A stretch of 64,000 nucleotides of DNA from Cytidiella melzeri (Eukaryota; Basidiomycota; Agaricomycetes; Polyporales; Irpicaceae), in assembly GCA_022592445.1 (NCBI GenBank), contig JABYQR010000117.1, forward strand, positions 1 to 64,000, in the 5' to 3' direction. The notes under the pieces are model-generated. The model did not search any database and was not told the origin of the DNA. It worked only from the letters and a program-made list of their open reading frames with translations. The translations under genes were made by a program, and so were the position numbers. Position 1 is the first letter of the stretch; each line of letters starts with the position of its first letter. Shown piece by piece: positions 53,330-56,780 of this stretch.

Positions 53330-53692
53330 CTACGGGACATGTAGGTTTCTAGTAAGCACATACCACGCGTGAATGACACCTGGAATCCACCCAACGAAGC
53401 ACAGCAGGATGTTGATCCAAAAATCTACATTGAGAAGAGGTTCAGCTCGGCTGACGTCCTAGTCTGCCTCCGATTGCGTACCGGCAGCCAAACCACGCTC
53501 TGAGGTGAAGAATTCATGGGTTAGCATACCTTCGAAGCTGCTGAATGGCCAGACTTACTGAGGAATACAGTGAGAGGTGGAATGAAGCTGGTGAGAGATG
53601 GTCAAGGTGAGTTTGTTCATCGGAGATCATGGAGCTTACATAGCCACAAAGTAGAGTAACACGTTGCCGGTGCTTGAGACAGGGGCGGCCAT
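53330..53692 (-). CDS. PMP3: PMP3/UPF0057-family plasma membrane proteolipid
   Basis: Tiny membrane protein of 64 residues in four exons (start ATG 53692, stop TAG 53332-53330). The product reads MAAPVSSTGN, then hydrophobic helix 1 ending in IPPLTVFLKRGL, then the second helix FWINILLCFVGWIPGVIHA and WYVLT. This is the full UPF0057 signature; the family's best-known members, yeast Pmp3 and plant RCI2, affect membrane potential and salt tolerance. The exon junctions fall in LYFVA|IFIPP, VFL|KRG and AAD|FW. A gene-fragment-carrying transposon has inserted about 130 bp upstream of its ATG (53824-56562), which may affect its promoter. Confidence 0.9.
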
Positions 53693-53823
53693 CGTTGTTC
53701 GGGGGTGTGCTGAAGAGTGCGGTTAGGGACGGAGGTGGTAGTTACTCGTATGAGACTCGGAAGTAACGGTGACATCATTCTTAAAGCTTGGAATAGAAGA
53801 TGAATGTCCCTTTTACTTATGTT

Positions 53824-53945
53824 CACTGCACGTTAGCCCTGAATTCCCATCGTGGATATCGCGTGTATATTAGTGATATCCATCCGATATCCACCCTATA
53901 TCCATTCACACTTATTTCCATGCAATAAAAATGTAATATCCATAT
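53824..53945 (+). repeat. Left TIR and subterminal repeats
   Basis: CACTGCACGTTAG terminus followed by GGATATCGCGTG and at least four copies of ATATCCA within 120 bp. Confidence 0.8.
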
Positions 53946-54127
53946 AAGCGCCCACAACTATAATCCAGACCCGCAAGGAGCGCCCGTCGGCATTCTCCCT
54001 GCAACCATGAATTCGACAAACGCGTCATAACTCCACACACCGCACCACAGAAACTCATCAGAAACCCAGGCCCGCTCTTCCCCAAGTGCGCGCCTGTACA
54101 CCTTTGTTCTTTCTCTGATGCATCGCG

Positions 54128-54489
54128 ATGTCTCAGCTTGTTCCTCACTCCCTCCCTCGCGTCTCACCCTGTGTTGCTCCGTCGCTGATGGAGTTGCCCA
54201 CGCCGTTCAGATCCAGCTCTACTGCAGTCACCCTACTCTGTTGTCTCCTTAGGACCGCTGATAGAGCCCTTCCGGTGAGTGTATGCGGTGCCTTCATCCT
54301 AGTTCCACATTGCTGACCCAAATACGTACGTAATGTCTCAATCATTGGTGACTGATAACGCGCACTGTGTCCGTCGCAACGAGCTCTGGCGTTAAACGCT
54401 AGCAGCCCTACTGTTGATCTCTACCAGGACGCTTACTATTTGACAGGCAGTGGGCATACTCCCAAACGGTCAGCAACAACGCATGACGT
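54128..54489 (+). pseudogene. Captured exons resembling a FunK1-type leader (weak)
   Basis: Two open segments joined by a plausible intron: MSQLVPHS...LPTPFRSSSTAV...RTADRALP (54128 to about 54271) and DAYYLTGSGHTPKRSATTHD (54430-54489, flanked by CAG and GTGAGT). Ser/Thr-rich leaders of this kind occur in front of some FunK1 kinases, and a FunK1 fragment follows at 55057. The assignment is from memory and weak. Confidence 0.35.
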
Positions 54490-54559
54490 GAGTCCCTGTG
54501 GTAAGACCTACAATGCATTCTATCTATGCGGCACTTTCGTGTTGACTGACTCTTCTATG

Positions 54560-55056
54560 GCAGGAGTAACGCTTCCGCAGGCCCGTCTAATAACACTGGA
54601 TCTGCTACCGCTTTCCAATATGTGCCCACGTCCCTGGATCCGGAGGAGCTTATACAGCTCTTACTCTCGGACCAGGAAATCACATACGTGCATCAAACAC
54701 TGAAGACATTCGCAAAGGAGACTACCACTCGCCATTACACGGCCGCCTTACCTAATCTCACCGTTCCAATCCTCAACGTCGATACCAATCTCTCCGATCT
54801 GCACTACAACGATAATCTGTTGTACGATTACGCCGGAGGCATAGCACTCGGTGCGCTCAAACGTTGGCGCGAGGCAGAAGAGTTCTTCGAGATTGTTGTC
54901 AGTGCCCCTGCGCAAGCGGCAGCTCGAAGCTTTGAAAAAGCTGACTTTGGTACAGCTGATCTTATACGGAAAAGTACGTGTCGCGCTCGCCATACTTGTT
55001 TCAACACCGGAGGTTTAGCCTGAGACTTACATACAGGCACTACCACCTCCGCAAAG
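54560..55056 (+). pseudogene. COP9 signalosome subunit 3 (CSN3) fragment, first part
   Basis: Reads RHYTAALPNLTVPILNVD, NDNLLYDYAGGIALGALKR and EEFFEIVVSAPAQ, then after a frameshift near 54915 QLEALKKLTLVQLILYGK. This is the helical-repeat region just before the PCI domain of CSN3. Intron signals (GTACGTG at 54975, CAG at 55036) are kept, so the capture was from genomic DNA, not mRNA. It lies inside the TIR element and is followed abruptly by FunK1 sequence. Confidence 0.7.
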
Positions 55057-55735
55057 GTCCTCAACTTCGTGTATCGCCTCGCCCTCATGTCACGAGACGA
55101 GCTTGGCTACGATACTACGGCCGAGCCTGCGACTTCGGCCAAGGTTCAGATGTTGAACAGGAATTCAAGAATCCCTACGCTGCCTCATGCGCGAAGGATA
55201 TCCTGGACAACCAGGTGCTTTACCCTATCTATAAGGTCTGGATCTTCCCTTCATTCGTTCGCGGACCGACGCTCTTCACTGATCAAAACCCGTAGGTCAC
55301 TTGTACCAACGTCGCGGACACTGATAGGGGGGTGTACTTTATCGGGAAGCATAGTGTAGCCTCATATTCGCCGACGGGCCGCGCGACCAAGGGTTACGTG
55401 ACTTTCAACAAGCAGAAGCCGACACGGCTGTGCTTCATGAAAGACTACTGGCGCCCCAACTCGAGCAAGATTCCCAAAGAGTTGGATGTATACAAGACGC
55501 TGAAGACAGCGGGAGTTCGCAATGTCGCGACTGCGATCGGAGGCGGGGATATTCCGGGCCAATACACCGTTACTCGGGAGTCTTTTGACCTCGAGAAAGT
55601 ACCATTAGAGCGTGTCCATTGTCGCCTTGTGTTTGAGCAGCTCGCACGACCGCTGGAGGCATACAGGAGCTCATCAGATATGATTGTGGTGTTATTCGAT
55701 GCGCTACAAGGTGAGCACATAGGGGATTCAGCGTC
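55057..55735 (+). pseudogene. FunK1-type protein kinase fragment inside CSN3
   Basis: Contains VLNFVYRLALMSRDELGYD, DILDNQVLYPIYKVW, GVYFIGKHSVASYSPTGRATKGYV, CFMKDYWRPNSSKIPKELD, RNVATAIGGGDIPGQYTVT, HCRLVFEQLARPLE and VVLFDALQ, the order found in FunK1 (PF17667) kinases up to just before the catalytic HRD region. The catalytic loop itself is missing. The fragment sits between two CAAAG pentamers (55052-55056 and 55736-55740). It cannot be an active kinase. Confidence 0.72.
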
Positions 55736-56199
55736 CAAAGTATATGAATTCTGTCCTCATAAAGCTAATGAAAAATTCTCCGTACTTCAATTTTACGAAA
55801 TCGTACCCGCGGACAATTAGTAAGCTCACAGCCTTAGCAACAAAAGATGAAGAGCTGTACAGGACGGTGCGTTGCCTCGCGGTACGTGTTAGGCTTCAAA
55901 AAATGACGTCCTACATTGTAGGAGAAAAACTGGGGTCTGGTGCAGCAAACCATCGCAAGAGCATCACAGTGGTTGATCAAGAAACTCACCTTGACGTACC
56001 TGACTCTTGGCTTGGGCGACATTGCAAGCCTCATCAGTGTTGCTACCGAGCATGAAGTGCGAGCATTGATACTAGACATGGTGAGCTCTTTGCCAAACGA
56101 CCGTCGATTGTGAATACTCACGATAGCACTGCTGACGCATAGATTGAGAGCGACGAGATAACGGCAAGCATATCCGTTGACGGGACTGTAACGCGTTAA
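55736..56199 (+). pseudogene. CSN3 fragment, C-terminal PCI part
   Basis: Resumes CSN3 with PKYMNSVLIKLMKNSPYF and KSYPRTISKLTALATKDEELY, then WLIKKLTLTYLTLGLGDIASLI and ILDMIESDEITASIS, closing at TAA 56197-56199. This matches the winged-helix/PCI end of CSN3 (human: TKTFLTLSLQDMAS and MIEDGEIFASI). At least two introns with GT...AG ends are kept. Together with 54560-55056 it gives about the C-terminal half of CSN3, split by the FunK1 piece. Confidence 0.72.
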
Positions 56200-56399
56200 C
56201 CTTCTCCGACTCTGTCGCTCAATGCTCGAAAGCCGACGTAGACAATTTGCATTAGTATTACAGGTCATCAACTCGAAGTAATCTATGTATACTGTATACG
56301 TACATGCATGGTCAGCTCGCGCGTGGTGTGCAATGGCATAGTGGCCAAAAATCAATTAAATTCTGAATATTAATATACTGCCCGATTATAATTATCGCT

Positions 56400-56562
56400 G
56401 ATCAGGCGTCTACGTGGATATTGGATGGATACAGCATGGATATTCCAACTATTCTAGGCTCTATCCACGCAATATCCATTCTGAGAAGTGCATGGATATT
56501 GCGTGGAAATTTTCCATATCCACGCAATATCCATCGTTGATATTCACGTCTAACGTGCAGTG
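56400..56562 (-). repeat. Right TIR and subterminal repeats
   Basis: On the minus strand it begins CACTGCACGTTAG and continues GATGGATATTGCGTGGATATG, then CACGCAATATCCATG and further GGATATTGCGTGGATA units. About seven copies in both orientations fall within 160 bp. Confidence 0.82.
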
Positions 56563-56780
56563 TGTTGTAAGCGTTGTATCTGATGAGTTGAATCTCCGAT
56601 GATGTTTATCAAGTCAAATTGATAATGTACAACGTAAGTGCTTAGATGCCGCGCGTTGATATGCCGAGGGGCGTCTAAATGCCGCTATGGTGTGTAACAG
56701 CACTGCTTCCGGTCTTTCAATATTGTACTACTTACACTGCTAGTCTTGCTCTTTGCCTTGAGTCTCTTTTTTCTTTTTCT

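Follow-up and report, generated by a model that had tools for sequence, protein, structure and literature searches.

INTRODUCTION

Plants, among them Arabidopsis, rice and maize, harbour Pack-CACTA transposons whose fragments can come from more than one locus (PMC8903248, PMC13317346). Here we describe a transposon of 2,739 bp found at positions 53824–56562 of a 64,000-nucleotide stretch of the basidiomycete Cytidiella melzeri (assembly GCA_022592445.1, contig JABYQR010000117.1, positions 1 to 64,000 of the forward strand; hereafter the window), which carries pieces of the host genes CSN3 and FunK1. It is likely, in our view, a non-autonomous Pack-CACTA transposon whose patchwork cargo was built in successive rounds of break repair; its larger relatives, through their tnp2-type transposase, are predicted to mobilise it. 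As in the plant elements, to the extent that these reports outline them, it has CACTA-type ends, no internal transposase, fragments of one or several host loci, and several copies. It differs in its fungal host, in ends that read CACTG rather than CACTA, in having one fragment set inside another captured gene without loss, and in that fragment-free copies are still present.

How inverted-repeat transposons capture genes is still debated: tandem insertion followed by faulty excision has been put forward for plants (PMC13317346, PMC8903248), and gap filling or fork switching for animals (PMC8277862). The animal Pack-TIRs of the latter study have a median junction microhomology of 2 bp and are given a gap-filling model; 160 of those counted (56.9%) are no more than 15 kb away from their parental copy, and where only a single copy exists the authors invoke repair and not transposition (PMC8277862). 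The present element is similar in its filler between intact ends, its short junction microhomology and its fit to a gap-filling model, but it appears to have moved as a unit, and its donors lie on other contigs. Because donors or their close relatives, pre-capture elements and post-capture elements coexist in one small fungal genome, the breakpoints can be read at base level.

Among fungi, transduplication by a DNA transposon was first reported in Pyrenophora tritici-repentis, where a hAT element carries a histone H3 gene (PMC3538342), and the histone H3 copy captured by a hAT of Pseudocercospora fijiensis is intron-less (PMC6710886). Our element is likewise a DNA transposon that carries and multiplies host gene sequence in a fungus, but those cases are hATs of ascomycetes, whereas here a CACTA element holds frameshifted pieces of several genes with an intron kept. 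CNIRT6 of Cryptococcus neoformans, from the CACTA superfamily, shares the basidiomycete host and the CACTG ends; it is reported as a full-length, transposase-bearing element (PMC12810828), in contrast to the transposase-free element with captured host genes described here. EnSpm elements with 3-bp duplications occur in rusts (PMC12730594), and in Rhizophagus gene families are found near Mutator-like elements (PMC8647823). The gene-capturing Helitrons of Pleurotus ostreatus (PMC4289320) also take up gene fragments in a basidiomycete, but by way of rolling-circle elements, unlike the inverted ends and target duplications seen here. Searches of an open-access library, which leaves out most subscription papers, gave no fungal Pack-CACTA. 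The kind of element is known in plants and is unusual here for its fungal host and its surviving intermediates; it would extend Pack-CACTA elements to a fungus.

ENDS AND CLASSIFICATION

The termini of the element are inverted, with 13 of 13 bases identical and then 37 of 47 and 51 of 70. The end sequence CACTGCACGTTAG stands on both sides in inverted orientation: the left terminal inverted repeat (53824–53836, + strand) and the right one (56550–56562, − strand) were both located by a genome end search. By direct reading, TGTT lies immediately outside both ends (53820–53823 and 56563–56566), which fits a 4-bp target-site duplication and gives no 3-bp match. Short subterminal repeats in arrays are a trait of CACTA/EnSpm elements, and such an array is found here: GGATATTGCGTGGATA-like repeats (up to three mismatches) have eight matches in the whole 64-kb window, all in the end regions of the element, against a mean of 0.38 and a maximum of 3 over 100 shuffles. 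Three are at the 5′ end (53854–53869, 53877–53892 and 53888–53903) and five at the 3′ end (56416–56431, 56427–56442, 56462–56477, 56494–56509 and 56517–56532). The initial annotation, which had reported inverted ends with 13 identical bases and about 37 of 47, dense subterminal repeats and TGTT on both sides, agrees with these measurements throughout.

Helitrons are without terminal inverted repeats and without target duplication, and we rejected that class for an element that has both. The termini CACTG..CAGTG agree with the 5′-CAC..GTG-3′ by which CACTA/EnSpm elements are recognised (PMC12730594); Plavaka, with termini TGT..ACA or CATCA..TGATG (PMC12730594), was rejected on the same bases. 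A target-site duplication of 3 bp also characterises CACTA/EnSpm; the 11 other family members examined show it, and the window copy has the 4-bp TGTT. In the wider CMCT group the target duplication is given as 2 to 5 bp (PMC12730594).

COPIES AND FAMILY IN THE GENOME

The assembly containing the window is a draft of 49,687,580 bases in 731 contigs, the loci of which we denote by C-numbers, C21 being the window copy; element position 1 is window position 53824. The exact 13-base end occurs 35 times genome-wide, against 0 for the reversed control. From the genome end list we paired 22 of these 35 into 11 complete elements (C11, C21, C38, C80, C96, C178, C190, C232, C401, C501 and C715), the other 13 being single. 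A perfect 3-bp target duplication flanks all 11 other members examined, that is, the remaining ten with two exact ends and C39, whose right end has two bases changed and whose duplication, AAA, is a weak motif.

The second copy of the element, C11:62633-65370, is 99.93% identical to the window copy, the 2,740 aligned columns containing a single mismatch and a single gap. The alignment ends at the element boundaries, the flanks are unrelated, and the C11 copy has a CAT duplication of its own. C38 and C715 form a second pair of twins, 2,375 bp long and 99.96% identical, with different cargo. Such pairs suggest that the element moves as a unit. A search with the element and its flanks of 1,024 and 1,038 bases (40 of 65 candidates scored) returned no empty site, only C21 matching the flanks, and no second haplotype copy for comparison.

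CARGO

All pieces of the element are read on the + strand. The 5′ end common to the family (53824–53992), shared with the large relatives described below, is followed by a piece (53993–54374) that is common, in whole or in part, to the members or relics C80, C401, C39, C247, C239, C88, C216 and C577, and for which a search found no source. Next come a 118-bp fragment (54375–54492) that aligns with C412:5863-5982 at 97%, another piece of the same locus being present in the C80 element, and then the CSN3 sequence. CSN3 fragment 1 (54493–54723; native C157:110261-110037, 94%) and fragment 2, which includes an intron (54724–55050; C157:109436-109108, 93%), are joined by a deletion of ∼600 bp at 54723/54724. 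A frameshifted fragment of a FunK1 fungal kinase (55049–55734; C168:182854-183549, 94%) lies within CSN3 with TCC on both sides, and CSN3 fragment 3 (55734–56245; C157:109110-108607, 96%) follows. The 3′ end region (56246–56562) is common to the large relatives from 56293 to 56562.

In a Pfam scan the CSN3 piece of the window matches the helical-repeat domain PF22788 (E 3.4e-10) and the FunK1 piece the fungal kinase PF17667 (E 7.7e-8), the CSN3 part 3′ of FunK1 being identified by alignment to the native locus and not by a family match. Native CSN3 on C157 is uninterrupted; of its four frames scanned, one matches COP9_hel_rpt, PF22788 (E 3.6e-22), the other three gave no credible Pfam family, and a PDB search with one native frame gave no match. 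Since the alignment of element to native CSN3 continues through intron sequence, the source was DNA and not mRNA. The FunK1 piece of the element comprises 683–686 bp, and its closest relative is C168 (94%; 13 of 13 candidates scored), whose kinase domain extends past the captured part, with PF17667 before and after the right junction. The frames are damaged: the FunK1 piece falls short of C168 by 10 bp, and an 11-bp gap interrupts the CSN3 piece.

The features that mark Pack-TYPE elements are therefore present: host-gene fragments stand between intact ends without a transposase, and copies of the captured genes lie outside the element (CSN3 on C157, the FunK1-related kinase on C168, and the C412 match). 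The initial annotation had described CSN3, FunK1 and CSN3 in one direction with introns kept, no transposase inside, and hence a Pack-type make-up, and had proposed looking for further copies, autonomous relatives and intact donor loci. The arrangement is borne out by the two Pfam families and the alignment through the intron, and each of the things looked for has a counterpart in the same genome: 35 exact ends and the C11 copy, large relatives with transposase-like frames, uninterrupted CSN3 and a close FunK1 relative. No coherent fusion protein is seen among the printed reading frames of the element, which are broken, and the frameshifted cargo most likely encodes no working protein; if it has an effect, this would be exerted on the promoters nearby, on RNA or on the shuffling of genes at a later time.

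ORDER OF CAPTURE

A search with the native locus (7 of 7 candidates scored) finds CSN3 in five carriers: the window copy, C11, C39, C247 and a remnant, C124. All five share a start at native base 376 of the query, and in each of the four that extend to the far side the CSN3 sequence stops at base 2030; these identical outer breakpoints point to one capture of ∼1.65 kb. The window copy, C11 and C39 are missing native CSN3 601–1200, and C247 has a different loss of its own together with a partial duplication. C39, a complete element flanked left and right by AAA, and C247, which runs off its contig end, have no FunK1, and their sequence across the insertion point is native-like. Because these two carry CSN3 with the same outer breakpoints and are uninterrupted at the insertion point, FunK1 would, by parsimony, have been added after CSN3.

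As a separate observation, 16 of the 32 native CpG sites within the captured CSN3 of C39 (C39:7253-7745) are changed to TG or CA, compared with 3 of 32 in the window copy and 6 of 32 in C247, as would be seen in methylated, decaying DNA.

HOW FUNK1 ENTERED CSN3

Native CSN3 at the insertion point reads CACCTCCAAAG, and the junctions in the element read CACCTCC-GCAAAGG ... CAGCG-TCCAAAG; in the C168 relative CCC precedes GCAAAGG and TAAATGG follows CAGCG. No CSN3 base is missing, and at most 3 bp are doubled. Three readings of these bases are indistinguishable: a template switch that leaves CSN3 at CC, which is also in C168, and returns at T, so that TCC occurs twice; a blunt insertion of 686 bp between T and CC; or an insertion of 683 bp with TCC doubled, from a break with a 3-bp stagger that was filled in from either side. 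The absence of CSN3 loss speaks against the fusion of two elements by complementary deletions and favours the copying of sequence into one break, the route put forward for animal Pack-TIRs. We infer template switching during break repair to be the capture route. Breaks, whose cause we infer rather than observe, would arise inside the element; their repair by template switching would copy in pieces of other genes; and repeated rounds would stack the fragments, CSN3 first and FunK1 later into CSN3.

The strongest alternative, though an unlikely one, is tandem insertion, in which two related elements insert on either side of a gene and are then fused around it when excision goes wrong and leaves complementary deletions at their ends. 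This is the mechanism stated for plant Pack-CACTA and other Pack-TYPE elements (PMC13317346, PMC8903248), and it could explain the initial capture of CSN3 no less well than repair. For FunK1, however, it needs two independent deletions at complementary CSN3 bases, in a gene of which nothing is missing and no more than 3 bp are doubled, and family ends are not seen around the C168 kinase in the 3.7 kb compared. We give much less credence still to the FunK1 fragment having inserted into CSN3 as an independent mobile element, with TCC as target duplication: the 3 bp equal the duplication length of the element family, but the two fragment ends do not repeat each other in inverted orientation, the kinase of C168, the sole relative examined, runs on beyond either junction, and a blunt insertion explains the same bases.

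The initial annotation had allowed for two histories, CSN3 first with FunK1 later, or a FunK1/CSN3 fusion mobilised whole. The former is upheld by the FunK1-free C39 and C247. The latter, a resident or fused gene, would suit the single orientation of all pieces and the kept intron, but is barely credible, given that CSN3 is uninterrupted on C157, that FunK1-free elements exist and that the frames do not join. That the structure is an assembly artefact or a chance inverted repeat, conceivable in a draft of so many contigs, can be set aside, with two copies on different contigs in different flanks and exact ends that the control lacks altogether.

THE SAME LAYOUT IN OTHER MEMBERS

Four cargo types occur among the members examined, and in three of them a piece stands inside pieces of another locus. 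The loci compared here (C721, C414, C135, C412, C729, C257, C312, C28 and C656) are known from alignment coordinates and are putative host genes. In the element of C38 and C715, compared by such coordinates with 40 of 54 candidates scored, a 908-bp stretch that matches C135 (97%) lies between two stretches that match C721 (96%). These two are 184 bp apart in C721, and a relative on C414 likewise has both C721-type stretches, separated by 184 bp, and lacks any match to C135. Frames of C38 gave ChaC (E 0.0012) and a MUG190-like SMP domain (E 1.5e-4), neither of which reaches its curated cut-off; for another two C38 frames no Pfam family was returned.

The C80 element has TAF2 and TFIIS-like stretches between two C412-matching stretches (97% and 96%): the former matches C729 (96%; Pfam TAF2_3rd, E 7.9e-11; PDB Taf2, E 1.2e-20), the latter C257 (91%; Med26/TFIIS domain, E 3.2e-8). 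Stretches of the C401 element match C312 (95%), C28 (97%) and C656 (89%); its cargo resembles a GH79 glycoside hydrolase, and Pfam and PDB searches with two of its frames gave nothing.

A broader view, which we hold only tentatively and would not bet on, is that this fungal CACTA family assembles genes in layers: every break would be filled by copying in a gene piece inside an earlier capture, so that the cargo is nested and earlier layers survive as copies. The breaks would perhaps be 3-base staggered cuts made by the family's own transposase.

A PREDICTED TRANSPOSASE IN THE LARGE RELATIVES

Three relatives of the element are large, 13.6–14.0 kb (C96, C178 and C501), and their alignment to the window copy is confined to element positions 1–169 and 2470–2739 (97–98%); subterminal repeats also align, in inverted orientation. 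Beyond these shared ends and subterminal repeats the interior of the element has no alignment to C96, C178 or C501, and a transposase is in this sense absent from it. Five frames of C96, joined by eye into one query, match Transposase_21 (tnp2, PF02992) with E 3.4e-7 and 30.1 bits, the cut-off being 28.6; one by one, the single frames gave no transposase family match. In a protein search the joined frames have 34 matches, the best of them an Irpex rosettiformis protein with 49% identity over 98%, and PF02992 is recorded in six of the 34. Two matches are unnamed; the named ones we take to be from basidiomycetes of mushroom and wood-rot kinds, which together with FunK1 points to an Agaricomycete host. 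The tnp2-type transposase of the large relatives is predicted to mobilise the element in trans.

C501 also has an open frame of 1,044 amino acids (C501:69415-72546, + strand), opposite to its transposase-like frames. Two C96 frames at the corresponding place gave no Pfam family.

Several observations count against the account of repair and mobilisation given above. The tnp2 match is barely above its cut-off and comes from frames joined by eye, the frame breaks fall at different places in C96, C178 and C501, and a genome-wide PF02992 search gave 20 places, none of them within these three; as that search missed all three, their transposase family is divergent. The 4-bp TGTT of the window copy is atypical beside the 3 bp of its 11 fellow members, and movement is read from copies. 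Junction overlaps of 1–2 bp are by themselves weak. With C168 only 94% identical, FunK1 may really have come from a different copy or from one since lost. The CSN3 segments, moreover, group differently: in the 3′ part an 8-bp insertion and five substitutions are common to C247 and the window copy and absent in native CSN3 and C39, C39 and C247 have changes in common in the middle part that the window copy does not show, and the ∼600-bp deletion common to C39 and the window copy conflicts with the other groupings. For this reason we rejected a history of the CSN3 copies along one tree; the elements have probably exchanged sequence.

SURROUNDINGS AND FURTHER FAMILY MEMBERS

The element sits in a short gap between two divergent genes (53333–53692, and from 56781), ∼131 bp and ∼218 bp from their assumed start codons. 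The former, a Pmp3 gene (E 4.3e-13), is on the minus strand. The latter reads like a zinc-cluster transcription factor, with Fungal_trans at E 0.012, below the cut-off, and no Pfam match for its zinc-cluster frame.

One member, C232:31435-31999, is 565 bp long with TCA on both sides and combines the leftmost ∼552 bp of a large relative with a bare 13-base right end, without the right subterminal region. C88, C216, C577 and C239 are dispersed repeats that hold element positions 130–669 (to 620 in C577) and parts of the C80 cargo, with other sequence in place of the family left end. Other repeats lie within family members. The same insert of ∼1.85 kb (90.8%) is found in C39:4934-6806 and C190:212659-214492; it begins TGATACG, has CCGC on both sides and looks like an LTR-type repeat. 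In C190 an open frame of 746 amino acids with a DDE_3 domain (C190:209916-212153) is probably a nested Tc1/mariner-like transposon.

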